A DNA stretch of 40,132 nucleotides from Candidatus Phascolarctobacterium caballi (GTDB lineage Bacteria; Bacillota; Negativicutes; Acidaminococcales; Acidaminococcaceae), in contig JAGHTS010000059.1 of NCBI GenBank assembly GCA_018065225.1, positions 1 to 40,132 of the forward strand. Direction: 5' to 3'. The position numbers and the translations under genes are program-made. Shown piece by piece: positions 2,619-28,465 of this stretch. Under the pieces are notes generated by a model. That model saw only the letters and a program-made list of their open reading frames with translations, was not told the origin of the DNA and did not search any database. Within the stretch, counting starts at the first letter, position 1. Each line of letters opens with the position of its first letter.

Positions 2619-4458
2619 GGAAGATGTATTAGCGGTAGCATTGCCTAAGGAACTGGAAGAGTTTATTGGGGATTATTATGTTGCTTTAACAAAAAGGGCT
2701 GACATAGGATTACTCGGTGAATCAGAGTTTCGGTGCTTTAGGCGGTACGTGCAAATGTACCAAAGCCACATGTACCAATTTGATGGTCAGGGCTTGCGGC
2801 GAATGTTCCGCTTTATAGGACTAATAATATATATAGACGAAGACGGGAAACCTCACCGGCTGAAGTTATATCCTGCACAGAAATTTATGCTGTGTGGGAT
2901 TTTTAGTTATAAGACCGAAGACGGGCGGTATGTAGTCAACGAGGCCAACCTATATGTAGGAAGAAGAAACGGGAAATCATTCCTGTTGGCGGCTTTGCTC
3001 CACTACCTAATGAACGGCACTAAGTATAAGAATGAACGGTTGATATTGGCATCGTGCAAAGGCCAGAATGCCACAATCTGCTTTGGCGAGTTCGCAAACG
3101 CTACAGATACGAACCCTGACCTGAAGGAATTGTACACCAACATTAACCGGACATCTTGCTATGCACGGTCGGGGGTTACCGGCAATACATTGGAAATGTT
3201 CCGGACAGGTGCCGGGGCTAAAAAGACATTGGACGGATTCACCAATAAGGTGGCGGTCATAGACGAAGAGATGCTTTGCGATGAAATAATAACAAAGACG
3301 ATTCAGGGCGGACAAACTTCGTTCCAAGACCGCTTGTTGGTCACAATGTCCACAGCTCAATTCACGGTTGGTGGAGAAAACCACAAGAAATGGATACGGC
3401 TACGCAAGCAACTATATGAGAATGCACTTGCTGACAATCAGTTTCTGTTTTTGGCCGAACCCGACGCAGAAGATTTGGCGGCCAAAGATTATGCCAATAT
3501 AAACCTATGGGGCAAAGCAAATCCGTGTTTGTTGTTTGAAAATGACGGGTACACCATAAAAAAACACATAAAAAAGACATATTTACAAATGGCAAAAGAA
3601 GCGGTCAACAAAAAGGGTTTTGATTTGCAGAATTTCATTACAAAGAATTGTAATGTGTGGTATTCCGCTGAAGAAAGGTCGCTCTGTACCTACGACCAAA
3701 TGAAGGCCTGCGAAGTCAATTATGGATTTGACGACCTCGTGGCGGTCGGGTATGTGAACTGGTATTTAGGAATAGACCTTAGTCAGGTACTGGATTTGTC
3801 AAGCGTGGCCATAATGACATATTACGGGGTGGACGAAGAGGGAAAGATAGTACCGCCGGAAATAACCCCGGCAAAATGGCGACTAATGATACACGTCCTG
3901 AGTTGGTTGCCTAAAAATCGGCTGCAACAACATATTGATACTGACCAATTCAGCTACATGGATTATGTGGACAAGGAATTGTTTCTGTGCACAGGCGGCG
4001 GTGGGGACAACATTGACACAACCCAAATATATGAACACATTGCCAATATGTTAGAAACCAAAGGAATCAACATAGTCACCACCACGGCAGACCCATATAA
4101 CTTTGCCGGGGTGCAGGACAGATTTGACGATATCAGCGAAACGGTTATTCTGCAGAATCAAACGCCTAAGGCATTGAGCCAATATATAGAGGCATTTGGC
4201 AAAGCATGGAAGGATGGCACCATTGCTATCCAAAAGGGCGGGGAAGAAATATTGGAAAAAGCCATGACTAACAGTTTGCTTGTCAGGAATAGCAGCGGCT
4301 ATTATTCAGTGGAAAAAATGACACTCCGGGCAGACAGCAATATCAGAATTGACCCGGTGGATGCCTCGCTGAATGGGTTTATTGCGGCTTATATTGACCA
4401 TAACAAAGCAGAGGCGAGCGGTGATCAGATTGTTGAAGAGTGGCTTAATAATTTATAG
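2605..4458 (+). CDS. terminase large subunit
   Basis: Walker A-like LYVGRRNGKSFLLAAL, Walker B VAVIDEEM, nuclease domain LGIDLSQVLDLSSVA; 617 aa. Confidence 0.93.
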   Translation: MAVTKEDVLAVALPKELEEFIGDYYVALTKRADIGLLGESEFRCFRRYVQMYQSHMYQFDGQGLRRMFRFIGLIIYIDEDGKPHRLKLYPAQKFMLCGIFSYKTEDGRYVVNEANLYVGRRNGKSFLLAALLHYLMNGTKYKNERLILASCKGQNATICFGEFANATDTNPDLKELYTNINRTSCYARSGVTGNTLEMFRTGAGAKKTLDGFTNKVAVIDEEMLCDEIITKTIQGGQTSFQDRLLVTMSTAQFTVGGENHKKWIRLRKQLYENALADNQFLFLAEPDAEDLAAKDYANINLWGKANPCLLFENDGYTIKKHIKKTYLQMAKEAVNKKGFDLQNFITKNCNVWYSAEERSLCTYDQMKACEVNYGFDDLVAVGYVNWYLGIDLSQVLDLSSVAIMTYYGVDEEGKIVPPEITPAKWRLMIHVLSWLPKNRLQQHIDTDQFSYMDYVDKELFLCTGGGGDNIDTTQIYEHIANMLETKGINIVTTTADPYNFAGVQDRFDDISETVILQNQTPKALSQYIEAFGKAWKDGTIAIQKGGEEILEKAMTNSLLVRNSSGYYSVEKMTLRADSNIRIDPVDASLNGFIAAYIDHNKAEASGDQIVEEWLNNL

Positions 4459-19056: not shown

Positions 19057-19821
19057 ATGAAGGTTTTTTATAAAAATGACAAAACGCAAAGACAATTAGG
19101 TTTTGAAAACAGTGGTGGCAAACTGACAGCCACTATGTATGTTCAGGAAGAAATCAAACAGGATGACAAAACCAAGATTGTTGAAAAGGTTGCTTTTTCA
19201 AAAACGTGGGAAATTGCAGAGTTATACAAGTTACGAACCAATTCCAATAATTTTACGGTAAAGGTATATTTTAATGATACCGCATTTACAAAAGTTATTC
19301 ACATTATGCCATCACGGGACAACATGAAGGAATATTGCAAGAATATGATTGTATCGGAGAATGGTGGACAGTCCAAAGGTATTGCGTTCTCGGTGTTCTT
19401 CAATGGCCCGGTTGATTGTTGCGTAGTAGTCAACAATTTCACTGTTAAACAATCAGCAGGAATTGAACTTGTAAAGAGTGATAACCCTGACAGGTCAGCA
19501 TTCCAATATTACCCTAATTTTTTGAATAACATGAAAAGGTTCAAAGCGAAACAAGAATTGCTGGCAAAGCTGGATTGCAACGATTCACTTTGTGGCAACG
19601 AGGCACAGGTCGATATCTTAACCAAGATTGTTAAGGCATTGGTGGAGCTGAACCCGGACAGGACAATTAGGGAAAAGGTGCCTGAACTGGATGCCTTCTT
19701 TGAGGCGGTGGACAGCACCAGTGTGCTGACCTTAAAAACCACCACTAAAGCCATTCAGGACATGAAAAAGCAAAAGGAGAATATAAGATATGCCCAACAG
19801 GAATATTTCCAAAACAAATAA
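19057..19821 (+). CDS. unknown protein between Cys-tailed fibre and radical SAM gene
   Basis: Intact 254-aa ORF; no recognisable family. Confidence 0.8.
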   Translation: MKVFYKNDKTQRQLGFENSGGKLTATMYVQEEIKQDDKTKIVEKVAFSKTWEIAELYKLRTNSNNFTVKVYFNDTAFTKVIHIMPSRDNMKEYCKNMIVSENGGQSKGIAFSVFFNGPVDCCVVVNNFTVKQSAGIELVKSDNPDRSAFQYYPNFLNNMKRFKAKQELLAKLDCNDSLCGNEAQVDILTKIVKALVELNPDRTIREKVPELDAFFEAVDSTSVLTLKTTTKAIQDMKKQKENIRYAQQEYFQNK

Positions 19822-20899
19822 AGTTATTAAGATTTTTTTGGGTTCTGCCTGCAACTTCCAGTGTAAATATTGTGTGCAAACCAAAATAGCACAGGAAGTC
19901 CACACACAGCAGGATTTCTCGAAAATAAAAAAGTTTCTTATTGACGAACAGCCGGACAGAGTGTTGTTGTGGGGTGGGGAGCCCCTTTTGTTTTGGGAAA
20001 CATTTAAGGCCATAGCAGAATTTGTGGCTGAAAATTGCCCCAAAGCCGATATTATCACCATAACCAACGGTTCGTTGCTGACTATGGATAAAGTAGAATT
20101 TATCAATAAGTACAATATCGGCATAGGCCTGAGCAATGACGGAAGGCACACTATCAAGACCCGGAACAAGAATGTATTAGAAGATATGCATATTCTTGAT
20201 TGTTTTTTGGGAATAAAGCACAAAGGCATTTGCACGGTACTGACCCCCCTAAACTTTGACATTTACAAAGATATTTGGGGTTATTTTGACGAAGTGCTTA
20301 TGGGCGAAAGGGTCAATGTCAATATAGACCCGGTTAAGAATTGCACAGGGTTGGATATGTTTATTCCCTCTGATTCAGATATGGAAGTGCTGAAAAAGTC
20401 CGTCCATATTATGGGGGATAAATTTGTGGAGTCCATTCAAAAAGGCGACTACAACAGCAGGGAATATATCTTTTTTGAACGGATTATTAGCCACATTAAA
20501 CGAGGTATTTTTGACAGGGAAGATTTAAGCCCTCGTCTTTTGTGCGGTCACGGTCACAATATTATGACCATTGATTTACAGGGAAATATTTTTACCTGCA
20601 ACAATTCCGGCATAATCGTTGGAACCGTGGCAGACAAAGACAAAGCCAATGCCGAAATCAACAAAAGGGTTATCCCAGATAAAAAGTGTATGGAATGTCC
20701 ATACCTTAACATCTGCATACCCGGAACCTGCACCCTGATAACCAAAGATGAAAGGGAGCAGGAATGCCGGATAAGGAAGGTGTTTTACAAGGAATTGATT
20801 TCCCGATTATTCCAATTGGGTGCAAATGGTATTTTGGACGCAACCGCACCCAAACAGGCAAATCTTGACAGGGAAATGTGCCTGTATTCTATGACATAG
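19790..20899 (+). CDS. radical SAM / SPASM-domain protein, putative peptide maturase
   Basis: CNFQCKYC (CxxxCxxC); SPASM-like LLCGHGHNIMTIDLQGNIFTC...KCMECPYLNICIPGTC...QEC; RBS aaaggag upstream. Confidence 0.9.
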   Translation: MPNRNISKTNKVIKIFLGSACNFQCKYCVQTKIAQEVHTQQDFSKIKKFLIDEQPDRVLLWGGEPLLFWETFKAIAEFVAENCPKADIITITNGSLLTMDKVEFINKYNIGIGLSNDGRHTIKTRNKNVLEDMHILDCFLGIKHKGICTVLTPLNFDIYKDIWGYFDEVLMGERVNVNIDPVKNCTGLDMFIPSDSDMEVLKKSVHIMGDKFVESIQKGDYNSREYIFFERIISHIKRGIFDREDLSPRLLCGHGHNIMTIDLQGNIFTCNNSGIIVGTVADKDKANAEINKRVIPDKKCMECPYLNICIPGTCTLITKDEREQECRIRKVFYKELISRLFQLGANGILDATAPKQANLDREMCLYSMT

Positions 20900-20909
20900 G
20901 AGATATAAA

Positions 20910-21902
20910 ATGGCAACACAATTACTTAATTACGATAATTTTACAAGGTTACAACATCCAAAAGAAAAAGAATTATCTGATTATTTTAAAAATCAAAATA
21001 TTGTGCTGGGTGAAGTTCAAAACGATGTTGAGAGTATGAAAACAGGCAAAGCGGACGCAACTAACCTAACCGACCACATCGAAGACGAAGGTAACCCCCA
21101 TAACGTTACCGCTCACCAAGTGGGAACTTTGACCGCCAGCGAAATCATAGAGGCAACGGGAATGCTTATGCGTTCTACCACATATATGGTAGGCGATATT
21201 TGTAAGGTTTCTTTATTGCCTAACAATTTCTATGTGGAATGTACCCAAGCAGGCACAACCAGTTCCACAGAGCCAACCTACACCCCTGTGCTTAATTCAG
21301 AGGTACTGGACGGAACAGCAAAATTTAAGGTGTACCGTTACGCGAACACCACAGAATTAGGTTTTATTCTGCGGAATACAGCGTATGTTGTTGGTGATGC
21401 CTGTTTTTCGGTTCAACTGCAACACAATATGACTTTGGTCTGCACCCAAGCAGGGACAACAGCAGGAACTGAACCGACAATAACCAACCCCGTAATGGGT
21501 ATGGTAATTTCGGACGGCACAGCCAAATTCACGATTAAGCCAACGGTGGCTGAATATTGCAACACCCAACCCACAACAACCAGTACCGCTTCCCCGTATA
21601 AACCAGTGGTCTGTATAGAGAATTATTACGATGAAGAAACGGGCGACTGGTATAGAAAGTACAGCGACGGTTTTATAGAACAGGGTGGGAGAATTGCTGC
21701 CGGTAGTGACAAACAATACACCGGAACATTCCTTATTCCTTTTTCTAATATTAATTACCAAATTTGTTATAGGGGCGTAGCAAGGAATAGTAATACAACT
21801 GCCACCCAATGGCAATGGATTGAAATTAACGCTATCTCTACTACCAGTTTTTGGGCAAAACAAATAAATTTCTACCGTGATTGGTATGCGTGTGGTTATT
21901 AG
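20910..21902 (+). CDS. phase-variable tail fibre, expressed form, gp53-like C-terminal tip
   Basis: HIEDEGNPHNVTAHQVG fibre motif; two carbohydrate-binding-like repeats; tip after DGFIE-QGG lies in invertible segment 1 and ends DWYACGY. Confidence 0.88.
   Translation: MATQLLNYDNFTRLQHPKEKELSDYFKNQNIVLGEVQNDVESMKTGKADATNLTDHIEDEGNPHNVTAHQVGTLTASEIIEATGMLMRSTTYMVGDICKVSLLPNNFYVECTQAGTTSSTEPTYTPVLNSEVLDGTAKFKVYRYANTTELGFILRNTAYVVGDACFSVQLQHNMTLVCTQAGTTAGTEPTITNPVMGMVISDGTAKFTIKPTVAEYCNTQPTTTSTASPYKPVVCIENYYDEETGDWYRKYSDGFIEQGGRIAAGSDKQYTGTFLIPFSNINYQICYRGVARNSNTTATQWQWIEINAISTTSFWAKQINFYRDWYACGY
21681..21689 (+). repeat. shufflon left terminal half-site CAGGGTGGG
   Basis: Matches right arm of the internal sites; left arm absent (...ttttatagaa). 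Confidence 0.75.
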
Positions 21903-22135
21903 TAACCATAAGCTATCCAATAACCAAAGACATTACGAGCGTCAGCCCCTCTTACTATACCTATATGCATAAACCCAGTGGTTGTTACAGACCCATTTTC
22001 CAATCCGGGTTCATAACTATCTGACGAAGTACCGCCACAATCTCCGAGCATGACAACTGGAGTTTTTTGAAACGGCAATATAAAACTAACTTGATGCCGA
22101 GTGTCACTTGCTTGTGTTCCAATTTTACCACCCTG
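21899..22135 (-). CDS. silent fibre tip 1' (QGGKIGTQASDTRHQVSFILPF...FGYWIAYGY)
   Basis: Open from CAGGGTGG to TAA; stop overlaps the stop of tip 1. Confidence 0.85.
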   Translation of the reverse strand, partial: QGGKIGTQASDTRHQVSFILPFQKTPVVMLGDCGGTSSDSYEPGLENGSVTTTGFMHIGIVRGADARNVFGYWIAYGY

Positions 22136-22147
22136 CTATCAGGGTGG
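22128..22147. repeat. shufflon site 1 CCACCCTG-CTAT-CAGGGTGG
   Basis: Palindromic arms, asymmetric 4-nt centre. Confidence 0.88.
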
Positions 22148-22388
22148 TATTTTAACCCCAAGCACTTGGGTAAGAATAGGAATTGGCAATTACAAAATAA
22201 CATTTCTTGTTCCTATGAACAACGTTGTTTTAGCACAAGGAACAGTTAAACAAACCGTAGCAGTTCCTTTTGGTTGGGCTGCTTTCGGTACAGTTACAAA
22301 TGTTAGTATTATTTTTACGCTTATGACAGTTGCAAATAGTTCAAGCGACCAATCAAATAATCTTTGGTGGCGAGTTTGTGGTTATTAG
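22140..22388 (+). CDS. silent fibre tip 2 (QGGILTPSTWVRIGIGNYKITFLVPM...WWRVCGY)
   Basis: Open from CAGGGTGG to TAG. Confidence 0.85.
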   Translation, partial: QGGILTPSTWVRIGIGNYKITFLVPMNNVVLAQGTVKQTVAVPFGWAAFGTVTNVSIIFTLMTVANSSSDQSNNLWWRVCGY

Positions 22389-22609
22389 TAACCACAAGCG
22401 TAGTACCCCCTGCTGACCGCAGAAACAGGTACTGCCCTAAAAGAGGACGCAGATACTGCATAGATTTGGAGTTGCCACCATCCGGGGTTTGTTGTATATG
22501 AAGTTACATCTTGACCCAAATATCCTATTTTATATTTTGCGTTTTTGAACGGAACAAGCAATGTTCCGTCATAATATTGACTGGCGATGCCCGGTATCTT
22601 ACCACCCTG
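22385..22609 (-). CDS. silent fibre tip 2' (QGGKIPGIASQYYDGTLLVPF...GYYACGY)
   Basis: Open from CAGGGTGG to TAA. Confidence 0.85.
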   Translation of the reverse strand, partial: QGGKIPGIASQYYDGTLLVPFKNAKYKIGYLGQDVTSYTTNPGWWQLQIYAVSASSFRAVPVSAVSRGYYACGY

Positions 22610-22621
22610 ATAGCAGGGTGG
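22602..22621. repeat. shufflon site 2 CCACCCTG-ATAG-CAGGGTGG
   Basis: Same arms, reverse-complement centre. Confidence 0.88.
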
Positions 22622-22823
22622 GTACTCAATAGGTGAAGGCAGTAAAAACTTGATTGTCCCATTCCAAAAAAGTTATGTTGCTGTAATTAGTGCTGTTGCA
22701 AGCGGTGATGTAAGATACGAAATCAAATTAGGAACAATAACATTGACTACTTTTAATGTTGTATATCATAGGTCTTCAACATCAGTAACTTGTAATTTTA
22801 ATTGGGTTGCTTATGGGTACTAA
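22614..22823 (+). CDS. silent fibre tip 3 (QGGYSIGEGSKNLIVPF...NWVAYGY)
   Basis: Open from CAGGGTGG to TAA. Confidence 0.85.
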   Translation, partial: QGGYSIGEGSKNLIVPFQKSYVAVISAVASGDVRYEIKLGTITLTTFNVVYHRSSTSVTCNFNWVAYGY

Positions 22824-23041
22824 TAACCGCAGCATCCCCATGTAACTAACTTATTGCTAACAGTAGTTCCCAAAGTAGCTACATATGAGCTTCCCTTAAA
22901 ATTTGTAAATGTTTTACTGTTTAAGGTTATTGAAAAAGGGCATGCCCCTTCAACAGCACCATACACCAAATATTTGGTAGCGGTAAAAGGTATAATAAGG
23001 GTAATTAAAGTACCTTCCTTAATATTGCTAATACCACCCTG
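22820..23041 (-). CDS. silent fibre tip 3' (QGGISNIKEGTLITLIIPF...TWGCCGY)
   Basis: Open from CAGGGTGG to TAG. Confidence 0.85.
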   Translation of the reverse strand, partial: QGGISNIKEGTLITLIIPFTATKYLVYGAVEGACPFSITLNSKTFTNFKGSSYVATLGTTVSNKLVTWGCCGY

Positions 23042-23053
23042 ATAGCAGGGTGG
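23034..23053. repeat. shufflon site 3 CCACCCTG-ATAG-CAGGGTGG
   Basis: Same arms. Confidence 0.88.
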
Positions 23054-23267
23054 TAAATTTAACAAGGCAGGTTTAGTTACAATTGTCTTGATTGTTAGCT
23101 TTTCTAACGTCAACTATTTTTTAAGTTGCGTACCAAGATATAGCGACCATTCAATATCCGCCCCGTTTGGAAGATTAGGTTTTAATAAAACGACAACAAC
23201 TTTCCAAAACGGAGCATCAACAACAAGTGGCGGTGTTCCCACAGATTGGTATGCTTGTGGTTTTTAA
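23046..23267 (+). CDS. silent fibre tip 4 (QGGKFNKAGLVTIVLIVSF...DWYACGF)
   Basis: Open from CAGGGTGG to TAA. Confidence 0.85.
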   Translation, partial: QGGKFNKAGLVTIVLIVSFSNVNYFLSCVPRYSDHSISAPFGRLGFNKTTTTFQNGASTTSGGVPTDWYACGF

Positions 23268-23476
23268 TAACCGCAACAGCACCACCAATTTTGTGAAGCA
23301 AGATCAGATACACCAGCAATGCTAATTGCGGTATTCGTTTTCGCCAAACCGCCAATATTGCAATTGTGGGCTCCCAACGCAGTCCCTGATAACGCAGAAT
23401 AATTGTTGTGCAAGAATGGCATTAAAAAAGTTATGGTCTTAACTTGACCAGCATTTAGATATACACTACCACCCTG
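23264..23476 (-). CDS. silent fibre tip 4' (QGGSVYLNAGQVKTITFLMPF...NWWCCCGY)
   Basis: Open from CAGGGTGG to TAA. Confidence 0.85.
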   Translation of the reverse strand, partial: QGGSVYLNAGQVKTITFLMPFLHNNYSALSGTALGAHNCNIGGLAKTNTAISIAGVSDLASQNWWCCCGY

Positions 23477-23488
23477 CTATCAGGGTGG
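23469..23488. repeat. shufflon site 4 CCACCCTG-CTAT-CAGGGTGG
   Basis: Same arms. Confidence 0.88.
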
Positions 23489-23702
23489 GGTCATTTCGTA
23501 CAATGGTAGTAGTTCGGGAAATACATATCAATTTTTAACACCATTTTCAACAACCCATTTATATGTTGGTTGCACCTGCATAACAACTATGGATGCTTAT
23601 ATTGTTAGAAACATAACTCAAACTTCATTTATTGTCTCAGCAGGTACAAGAAATATTGGGTGGTTTGCCAACAATTTTATATGGTATGCGTCCGGTTATT
23701 GA
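23481..23702 (+). CDS. silent fibre tip 5 (QGGVISYNGSSSGNTYQFLTPF...IWYASGY)
   Basis: Open from CAGGGTGG to TGA. Confidence 0.85.
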   Translation, partial: QGGVISYNGSSSGNTYQFLTPFSTTHLYVGCTCITTMDAYIVRNITQTSFIVSAGTRNIGWFANNFIWYASGY

Positions 23703-23926
23703 TATCCACAAGCATAATACGAAACTATTCCTGTATTCTCGTCTTGATAATAAGTAAAACCGGTTCCGGTTCGTTTTTGCGGCACCCAATTAACAGAAGT
23801 CATACTTCCGCTCCAACCGTTTTCTATAGAGTAACAAAACAGCAAAGAATAATTATTATTGGAGAACGGGACAAGAAAAGTCAACGTGTAATATGTACGT
23901 CCAATGACAGGTCTGTACCCACCCTG
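23696..23926 (-). CDS. silent fibre tip 5' (QGGYRPVIGRTYYTLTFLVPF...SYYACGYQ)
   Basis: Open from CAGGGTGG to TAA. Confidence 0.85.
   Translation of the reverse strand, partial: QGGYRPVIGRTYYTLTFLVPFSNNNYSLLFCYSIENGWSGSMTSVNWVPQKRTGTGFTYYQDENTGIVSYYACGYQ
23919..23926 (-). repeat. shufflon right terminal half-site CCACCCTG
   Basis: Half-site followed by ctcttaatc, no right arm. Confidence 0.75.
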
Positions 23927-23997: not shown

Positions 23998-24378
23998 ATG
24001 AGTATTGGAACAAAATTGCCTAAACCCTGTCCACAAAATCAGTGGTTAGAGGCGAGAAAGTGGGCGATGGGGCATAATGCCACCATTGAAGACAAAGGGA
24101 ATTATTATGAGATTGTAGCCATTCCTGCACCGAGTGTTGAAGAACTGCAAAGTCAAAGACGGGGGGTCAGAGATAACTACCTGAATGGTATTGAATGGCG
24201 GGTTGACAGGTACAAAGACCAGTTGGCTTTGGGCATTCCCACAAATGACACAGAAACCACATACAGAGCGGTTTTGCAGTATATGCAGTACCTGAGGGAT
24301 TATCCAAACAATTTGGGCGGTAACTGGTGGGAAGAAGACCCTTTAACTTTCGAAAAATGGCTTGAAATCAATGGTTAA
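23998..24378 (+). CDS. tail fibre assembly protein
   Basis: QSQRRGVRDNYLNGIEWRVDRYKDQLALG...YRAVLQYMQYLRDYPN resembles phage fibre-assembly chaperone C-termini; immediately downstream of the fibre locus. Confidence 0.7.
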   Translation: MSIGTKLPKPCPQNQWLEARKWAMGHNATIEDKGNYYEIVAIPAPSVEELQSQRRGVRDNYLNGIEWRVDRYKDQLALGIPTNDTETTYRAVLQYMQYLRDYPNNLGGNWWEEDPLTFEKWLEING

Positions 24379-24403: not shown

Positions 24404-24491
24404 TTAGTAACAAATTAGTAACACGTTAAAAAGTGATAAATGCGTGGGTTAAAAGGAAAACAATTCTTGAATTAGTAACAGGTTAGTAACA
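24404..24491 (+). repeat. four direct copies of TTAGTAACA in two pairs upstream of the recombinase
   Basis: TTAGTAACA at 24404, 24415, 24472 and 24483; 11-bp spacing within each pair. Confidence 0.8.
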
Positions 24492-24505: not shown

Positions 24506-25540
24506 GTGGTAAAAATGAAGTTACCGAACGGCTTTGGAAGTGTTACTAAATTAAGCGGAAACCGGAGAAAACCTTTTGCGGTTAGAAAGTGGATGTCGGG
24601 CAAACAGATTTATGCCGGAAGTTTCGAAACTTACGAACTTGCCATTGCGTACCTTATCAATTCCCAAAAGAGCCATAGTGCCATTGGCATTAAGAGAATG
24701 ACCTTTATTGAGGTGTACCGGCAAATGGCGGCAGAAAAATATGGCGACCTTGCGGAAAACAGTGTCAAGAATTATGAGGCGGCACTAAGGCATTGCGAAT
24801 TACTTTTTAATAAGCCCTTATGTGAAATTAAATTATCAGACCTGCAAAAGGTAATTTCCCAAATGGATGCCCAAAAGATAGGGTACGCAAGCCAAAGGAA
24901 ATGCCGGTCTTTATTCCACAATGTCTATGGCTACGCAATTAAGTATGAGATTGTGGACGTGGACTATTCCCAGTGGGTGGAGATTTGCAAAAGGGTGGTA
25001 TTGCACCCCAAGAAACCTTTTAACCGGCGGCAGCTCAACAGGGTTATTGCATTAGCTGAAGGGGATGGAGCGTTGGCACGGTGGGCAAAGTGTGTTGTTA
25101 TGCTTTGCTACAATGGATGCAGGGCAGGGGAATTTTTGAGCATAAAGAAAACAGACGTAAAATTGGGGCAAAAATTCTTTATTGTCCGGGAAAGCAAAAC
25201 TGAATCAGGGCGAAACAGGATTGTTCCCATTCATAAAAAATTATTACCTTATTATCAATGGTGGTATGAACAAGAGGGCTCAACCCTGATAAGCGAGAAC
25301 GGGGAACCGGTAACATATCAGCGGTTCAAAGCTCTTTTTGACAGGGTAATGAAAATAAGCCATTGCCACCACAGCCCCCATGAATGCCGCCATACTTTGG
25401 CAACATGGCTGGACGATGCCGGAGCAAATGAAGTTGCTACCAAAAAGATACTTGGCCACAGCGTGAAGGGAATAACCAAAGGTGTTTATACCCACAAGAA
25501 CCTGCACGAACTGAGAAAGGCAATAAACAAGGTAAAATAG
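24506..25540 (+). CDS. tyrosine recombinase, probable shufflon (Rci-like) recombinase
   Basis: R-H-x-x-R-Y signature (NGCRAGEFLSIKK; HECRHTLATWLDD; ILGHSVKGITKGVYTH); adjacent to shufflon, separate from the attP-linked integrase. Confidence 0.85.
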   Translation: MVKMKLPNGFGSVTKLSGNRRKPFAVRKWMSGKQIYAGSFETYELAIAYLINSQKSHSAIGIKRMTFIEVYRQMAAEKYGDLAENSVKNYEAALRHCELLFNKPLCEIKLSDLQKVISQMDAQKIGYASQRKCRSLFHNVYGYAIKYEIVDVDYSQWVEICKRVVLHPKKPFNRRQLNRVIALAEGDGALARWAKCVVMLCYNGCRAGEFLSIKKTDVKLGQKFFIVRESKTESGRNRIVPIHKKLLPYYQWWYEQEGSTLISENGEPVTYQRFKALFDRVMKISHCHHSPHECRHTLATWLDDAGANEVATKKILGHSVKGITKGVYTHKNLHELRKAINKVK

Positions 25541-27005: not shown

Positions 27006-27100
27006 AATTAGAAAATAAAAGGTCGTCAAACAGGTCGTCAGAACAAAAATTTAGAGGGCTTTGGAATTTATCCAAAACCCTCTAAACCTTGATTGTTCTG

Positions 27101-27157
27101 TGGTGCCGGAGGCCGGAGTCGAACCGGCACGGTTGTTACACCGCTTGATTTTGAGAT
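27101..27157 (-). other. attP core: 3' portion of a tRNA-Leu (CAA-type) gene
   Basis: Reverse complement CTCAAAATCAAGCGGTGTAACAACCGTGCCGGTTCGACTCCGGCCTCCGGCACCA contains T-arm and CCA end; 5' half missing; integrase adjacent. Confidence 0.82.
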
Positions 27158-27364: not shown

Positions 27365-28465
27365 CTATAATTTATTCAACAAGTCAAGTGTACTTTTGTC
27401 CATTTCGGGGGTGTGCTTAACGTATTTATTTAATGTCATGGCGACGGTGGAATGACCGAGTTTCGCCTGTATTTTTTTTGGGTTAATGTCATTCTCCGCT
27501 AAATAAGTTGCCACAGTAGCACGCAGGGAATGAAAGGTCATTTCGTCCGGGAAACCTAATACTTTACGTGCATCGCAAAAAGCACGGCTTAACGAATTGG
27601 GCATAAGAAAACCGCCTGTGCGAGATTGAAACACAAATGAATCAGGATTTATTTTTTTATTTTTTTCTTTATTAAAAGAAATCTGCTCTTGTAATAATTT
27701 TTTCATAACAGGGGGGATGGCGATTGCACGGATAGAGCTTTTGGTTTTCAATGAACCGACAATCCATTGACCATTATAAACCTTAATGCCACGTTCTACT
27801 ACAATATAATTTTCGTCCAAGCGCAAGTCCTTTATTTGCAGACCGCAGATTTCGCCGCGTCGCATTCCTGTGTTCCGGGCAAAGCGGAAAATTCTTTTCA
27901 TTTGCTGGCTGGGAATTGCATCCAACAAAATATCAAATTCCTCTTTGGTAAGGGTCAACCGTTCTTTGCTTTCATACTTAGGTTTATCGATGAAGTCAAA
28001 AGGATTTTCTTTTATAACCTTTTCTTTCCATGCTTGATGGAAAACCGCTTTTAAAAACACATAGAGCATCTGCTTTGTCCGCCTGCCGTCAACCGCCGCT
28101 TTCGGCTTAAAAGATAACAAAAATTGACGACTTGCAGGAACATTGACGGTGTCCATTTTCATTCTGGAAAAATTAGTTCCGGCAATATAATTCTTGATTA
28201 GGCAATCGTAAGTGTCAAGGGTAGAAGTGCCCGGGTCATTCTCCCGCCGTGCTTTCATGTAGTAGTCAATGAACGAACCCACAGAATATACATTACGGGA
28301 CAACCCTGAATATTTTAGCATTAACTTATTGATTTTTTCAGTCAACTCCACTTGCGTATCTGCGTACACATGCTTGCTGAACGCTTCCCCTGTAATTCCG
28401 TCATACAAAGTAATTTTTCTTTCAAACCGCCCGTCAGGGCGCTTTTTTATTTTCGGCTTATTCAT
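27365..28465 (-). CDS. int: phage integrase (tyrosine recombinase)
   Basis: NTGMRRGEICGLQIKDL; FHSLRATVATYLAENDINPKKIQAKLGHSTVAMTLNKYVKH; adjacent to tRNA-derived attP. Confidence 0.93.
   Translation of the reverse strand: MNKPKIKKRPDGRFERKITLYDGITGEAFSKHVYADTQVELTEKINKLMLKYSGLSRNVYSVGSFIDYYMKARRENDPGTSTLDTYDCLIKNYIAGTNFSRMKMDTVNVPASRQFLLSFKPKAAVDGRRTKQMLYVFLKAVFHQAWKEKVIKENPFDFIDKPKYESKERLTLTKEEFDILLDAIPSQQMKRIFRFARNTGMRRGEICGLQIKDLRLDENYIVVERGIKVYNGQWIVGSLKTKSSIRAIAIPPVMKKLLQEQISFNKEKNKKINPDSFVFQSRTGGFLMPNSLSRAFCDARKVLGFPDEMTFHSLRATVATYLAENDINPKKIQAKLGHSTVAMTLNKYVKHTPEMDKSTLDLLNKL

Follow-up and report, generated by a model that had tools for sequence, protein, structure and literature searches.

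Shufflons that join the constant N-terminus of a phage receptor-binding protein (RBP) to one of several dissimilar C-termini, with the help of an adjacent tyrosine recombinase of the Rin type, were published in 2018 and 2022 for prophages of Bifidobacterium (PMC6109161) and Eggerthella lenta (PMC8778435), and in bifidophages the inversions have been observed in sequencing reads (PMC6109161). How Rin favours inversion over deletion was left open by its authors. The locus described here lies in a stretch of 40,132 nucleotides from Candidatus Phascolarctobacterium caballi, referred to as the window, and belongs to this known kind of system. Like the Rin loci it is phage-borne, has an adjacent tyrosine recombinase besides a separate integrase, carries short crossover sites (8 bp in the window, 11 bp and 8 bp for Rin) and combines a constant N-terminus with one of several dissimilar RBP C-termini. 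However, bifidophages encode five RBP versions with tips described as tandem, whereas the window has ten tips in five convergent pairs, and site, fibre family and host phylum are all different. Furthermore, Rin was reported without an arm-type N-terminal domain, whereas the window recombinase has a beta-sheet-plus-helix domain according to its structural model. The window system would therefore work like Rin, but in view of Rin's published description we do not class its recombinase, as modelled, as a Rin. New features are the host group, the strict back-to-back pairing of ten tips, the 8-bp coding sites and the predicted lambda-Int-like N-terminal domain; our literature search, which covered few subscription papers, found no reports of such shufflons in Negativicutes phages.

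Other systems share the principle. Min of p15B, Gin of Mu and Cin of P1 also switch tail-fibre C-termini by inversion, Min in a multi-segment array, but they are serine recombinases acting on other sites (PMC6109161), whereas the window enzyme is a tyrosine recombinase of the Phage_integrase family. The pilV shufflon of R64 resembles the window in its tyrosine recombinase (Rci), its multi-segment inversion and its alternative C-termini; its target, in contrast, is the tip of a conjugative pilus, its sites are different and Rci is not significantly similar to the window recombinase. The tRNA-Met prophages of Bifidobacterium (PMC6109161) possess a strikingly similar 8-bp site, CAGGGTTA, at which a single stretch of roughly 500 bp within structural genes is inverted, but they lack an adjacent recombinase and have two states only. 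The original prediction, made from the window sequence, had compared the locus with R64, Mu and P1; these are indeed related by the inversion principle, but the closest ones, Rin and Min, had been missed. It had also considered a ten-tip phage shufflon far larger than the classical systems. The ten tips hold, whereas the system is less isolated than supposed, given the published Rin loci and relatives with up to 12 tips.

The tip array and its products

Downstream of the fibre constant part, positions 21681-23926 resolve into five segments of 455, 470, 428, 431 and 446 bp, each with inverted CAGGGTGG/CCACCCTG at both borders. The relevant features are as follows.

20910..21902, + strand: tail fibre gene as now expressed, ORF of 330 aa, consisting of the constant part (20910-21680) and tip 1
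21681..22135: putative invertible segment 1, holding the expressed tip 1 on the + strand (73 aa) and tip 2 on the - strand (78 aa), with CAGGGTGG at 21681 and CCACCCTG at 22128
22140..22609: putative invertible segment 2, holding tip 3 on the + strand (82 aa) and tip 4 on the - strand (74 aa)
22614..23041: putative invertible segment 3, holding tip 5 on the + strand (69 aa) and tip 6 on the - strand (73 aa)
23046..23476: putative invertible segment 4, holding tip 7 on the + strand (73 aa) and tip 8 on the - strand (70 aa)
23481..23926: putative invertible segment 5, holding tip 9 on the + strand (73 aa) and tip 10 on the - strand (76 aa)
21681..21688, + strand: outer left site CAGGGTGG, read as Gln-Gly-Gly within the fibre gene as now expressed
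22128..22147: back-to-back site pair CCACCCTG-CTAT-CAGGGTGG
22602..22621: back-to-back site pair, ATAG linker
23034..23053: back-to-back site pair, ATAG linker
23469..23488: back-to-back site pair, CTAT linker
23919..23926, - strand: outer right site CCACCCTG
23998..24378, + strand: 126-aa protein resembling tail fibre assembly proteins (2.4e-11 to phrog_188, tail fiber assembly)
24506..25540, + strand: tyrosine recombinase, 344 aa, proposed shufflon invertase (Phage_integrase, 3.5e-21)
27365-28465: second tyrosine recombinase, adjoining a CI-like repressor and a tRNA-Leu attP

Five segments of about 430-470 bp with inverted flanking sites, each holding two convergent tips whose stop codons abut or overlap, had been predicted, and both features are present in the sequence. 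The window contains 12 copies of CAGGGTGG, 10 of them inside the array and in the strict order +-+-+-+-+-. Shuffled controls contained 1.0 copies on average and never more than 4, and an origin of the site array by chance is excluded by these shuffles. All four internal junctions are near-palindromes of the form CCACCCTG-NNNN-CAGGGTGG, with CTAT as linker in two and ATAG in the other two, and this composite with either linker is absent from the rest of the 1.56-Mb host assembly. As the linker occurs in both orientations, the junctions show the pattern that past multi-segment inversions would leave. The palindromic site was also encountered in seven viral contigs, with one copy per contig, which we took as chance.

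At all ten sites the codons are identical (CAG GGT), although CAG accounts for 43% of Gln codons and GGT for 29% of Gly codons in window genes. Using this codon usage and assuming independent tips, the joint chance of CAG GGT at ten sites is about 1e-9, which argues for conservation of the DNA itself and points to constraint on the nucleotide sequence or to its exchange.

Translation in the frame of the fibre gene, whose constant part ends in ...YSDGFIE, showed that each of the ten tips is open over 69-82 codons (individual lengths are listed above), begins with Gln-Gly-Gly and finishes in an aromatic-rich end with Gly-Tyr or Gly-Phe; the original prediction had given roughly 70-80 aa per tip and an aromatic-rich end for most of them. 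Under a first-order Markov model of this region, 69 consecutive open codons have a probability of p=0.016, and the chance that the nine silent tips, 9/9 of which are intact, are all open is estimated at about 1e-16. Codon-bias scoring ranked the correct frame first in 6 of 10 tips and carries little weight for or against.

Alignment and structure prediction, suggested as a check of the original prediction, showed that the tips share the QGG start, a Pro-Phe motif and the terminal Gly and are otherwise dissimilar, with 23-45% identity to tip 1 (42% for tip 4). Their supposed resemblance to gp53-like domains was borne out in part: tip 10 matches Gp53-like_C (PF21882) above the curated cut-off (1.4e-5) and tips 1 (2e-4), 2 (1e-3), 5 and 8 match below it, whereas the other five of the ten tips gave no match to this family. 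Tip 5 has a weak H_lectin match beside its weak Gp53-like_C match, and the fibre gene itself gave weak PHROG tail-fibre matches. Structures were predicted with AlphaFold2 for the expressed tip and 90 other tips from the window and its relatives. The model of the expressed tip is all-beta (pLDDT 84), and its top four matches in a Foldseek search of the PDB are tail-fibre ends of R2- and R1-pyocins, the best being the R2-pyocin fibre tip (probability 1.00, TM 0.61, E 4e-3). From such models we naturally infer that the tips would bind receptors. A radical SAM/SPASM protein is encoded directly 5' of the fibre gene (19790-20899) and is most similar to PapB-type ranthipeptide maturases (1e-22, below the cut-off).

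Recombinases and related loci

In an alignment of the recombinase encoded at 24506-25540 with 25 relatives, residues R206, K231, R295, H318 and Y328 are invariant and H292 is nearly so. Its conserved residues 1-65 are modelled as a three-stranded sheet plus helix ahead of the usual two domains, and the model aligns over full-length lambda Int, so that the N-terminal domain is, as modelled, lambda-Int-like. The comparison with Rci yielded a best E of 0.097, and Rci falls outside the recombinase set. The recombinase gene is co-directional with the fibre gene and lies beyond the assembly gene, whereas it is convergent in the relatives inspected, a difference that counts against its proposed role. 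Two pairs of TTAGTAAC direct repeats, 11 bp apart in each pair, are located just 5' of it (24404-24490); the paired motif has no second occurrence in the host genome, and the upstream regions of the relatives checked lack repeats of this kind. These repeats are possible operator or arm-type sites.

The second recombinase (27365-28465) is taken to be the integrase because the adjoining 63 bp (27093-27155) match the 3' end of tRNA-Leu(CAA) from a congeneric genome without a single mismatch. With its CI-like repressor and attP it covers integration, which leaves the recombinase at 24506-25540 free for inversion.

Relatives of this latter recombinase include proteins from Phascolarctobacterium, Megasphaera, Acidaminococcus, Veillonella, Anaerovibrio and Gallibacterium. 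Among 176 loci scanned, some of which are one place fetched twice, 39 have arrays of at least 3 tips that open with the sites CAGTGGGG, CAGGGGGG, CAAGGGGG or CAGGGTGG, all of which encode Gln-Trp/Gly-Gly in frame. Some 8-mer families of an early automated scan were tandem repeats, and counts were taken from stricter scans. In a FastTree tree the array-bearing recombinases all fall into one supported clade of 59 rows from Negativicutes and Gallibacterium. Inverted in-frame Gln-Trp/Gly-Gly tips accompany 38 of these 59 members, two-tip systems included; another 15 reach the contig end within 2 kb, and 6 lack such tips, three of them having other inverted repeats. Outside the clade the 176-locus scan revealed no Gln-Trp/Gly-Gly tip arrays beside recombinases, three apparent exceptions having recombinases 94-100% identical to clade members. 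Across the clade the number of tips per array ranges from 2 to 12. Strict site alternation as in the window was also found in two relatives (L176 and L224), and the nearest relative of the window site is that of a two-tip CAGGGCGG system (L130), whose recombinase is 52% identical. Same-clade recombinases of Megasphaera massiliensis (L037, 13961-14648) and Acidaminococcus intestini (L039, 11894-12962) are accompanied by tail-collar-like tips and other sites (CCGTTGGGGAGTT and CCACCGATGA, respectively). Contig breaks 3' of the recombinase were considered as a mark of mixed arrangements (18 of 59 in the clade versus 6 upstream), but this signature was dropped since recombinases outside the clade are equally biased (35 versus 9 upstream, of 117).

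Looking for shuffled order in related phages, which had been put forward as a check, led to the contigs of two related prophages (L163 and L209) that share one IMG genome number in their names and have flanks 98.3-99.98% identical. They carry five identical tips, ordered A+B+C-D-E- in one case and A+D+B+C-E- in the other, a change for which two inversions suffice and in which all five tips are retained. At the changed junctions the outer sequence was kept and the inner one swapped, and every breakpoint lies exactly in the 10-bp ACAGTGGGGA. The pair demonstrates programmed inversion in this recombinase family; by analogy it probably also occurs at the window locus, although the recombinase there is only 36% identical to that of the pair. 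In another relative (L150, 7748-8280) one 16-bp linker between back-to-back sites is present in opposite orientations within a single array, likely as the footprint of a block inversion. No close relatives of the window phage were retrieved from viral contigs, whether with the recombinase, the fibre, the J protein or the radical SAM protein as query, or from phage, plasmid and family DNA.

Proposed mechanism and alternatives

Array anatomy, gp53- and pyocin-like tips, an array-specific recombinase clade and the rearrangement in a relative together support the multi-segment tip shufflon of the original prediction as the best reading, and we consider it very probable that the locus is a phage shufflon of fibre tips inverted by the adjacent recombinase. 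The recombinase would act on oppositely oriented short sites (8-bp core CAGGGTGG) and invert one or more segments. As the site encodes Gln-Gly-Gly in the fibre frame, any tip moved next to position 21680 would be fused in frame and expressed, with the other nine silent at that time, and crossover within the conserved Gln-Gly-Gly codons would preserve the reading frame with nothing added. If every + site can recombine with every - site, inversion could generate 5! x 2^5 = 3840 signed orders (derived from the site order, for whole-segment inversions) and ten fibre proteins. Such tip switching would vary the receptor specificity of the virion, and we infer an effect of inversion in the window on host range.

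In a static or decayed archive of tips the repeats would reflect the conserved Gln-Gly-Gly motif only, and tips would change by rare homologous recombination. Gln-Gly/Trp-Gly is indeed a conserved protein motif at the tip start, and neither a second copy nor another arrangement of the window locus was found among viral contigs, phages, plasmids and genomes of the family. However, the intact state of all nine silent tips, the identity of synonymous positions over ten sites, the inverted back-to-back placement of sites and the related pair with two inversions and breakpoints only within the site speak against such an archive, which we regard as highly unlikely. Alternatively, the segments might mainly undergo deletion or expansion between direct sites, the array being a transient of cassette exchange without a reversible switch. 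Direct site pairs do exist and the tip number varies in the clade, but the sole difference seen between near-identical loci is a pure inversion in which no tip was lost, making this explanation very improbable.

The shufflon might also be driven in trans by another recombinase, with the enzyme at 24506-25540 serving something else, for example integration. Trans-acting invertases exist (discussed in PMC6109161) and the window does encode a second tyrosine recombinase; yet the latter adjoins attP and a CI-like repressor, and Gln-Trp/Gly-Gly arrays accompany only the clade of the 24506-25540 recombinase, so that we judge action in trans extremely unlikely. For the favoured reading, inversion by the adjacent recombinase, the N-terminal domain of the enzyme is a candidate for avoiding deletion between direct sites. 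Tentatively, and with rather less than even expectation, one may go further and postulate a separate lambda-Int-like, arm-domain clade in Negativicutes and Pasteurellaceae that is specialised in fibre-tip inversion at an 8-10 bp site in Gln-Trp/Gly-Gly codons and whose arm domain enforces inversion over deletion.

These results suggest that fibre shuffling by recombinases is widespread among phages as a strategy and more than a Bifidobacterium curiosity. The clade supplies dozens of natural arrays with recognisable sites, and thereby compact enzyme-site pairs for studying the preference of inversion over deletion. Since silent tips belong to the repertoire, one assembled genome is insufficient for the host range of such phages.

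Phage context

The attP is flanked by phage genes on both sides, and the contig therefore looks like a phage in excised or circularly permuted form. Two spacers of one CRISPR array from a congeneric genome (G002 contig 14, L235) match the window, one with 30/30 positions in the terminase (3218-3247) and the other with 28/30 positions in the fibre constant part (21388-21417), which supports the host genus. The contig ends (1-180 and 39953-40132) are paralogous DNA with 164 of 180 positions identical and the last 90 or so bases exact; assembly of the contig probably stopped at this repeat.
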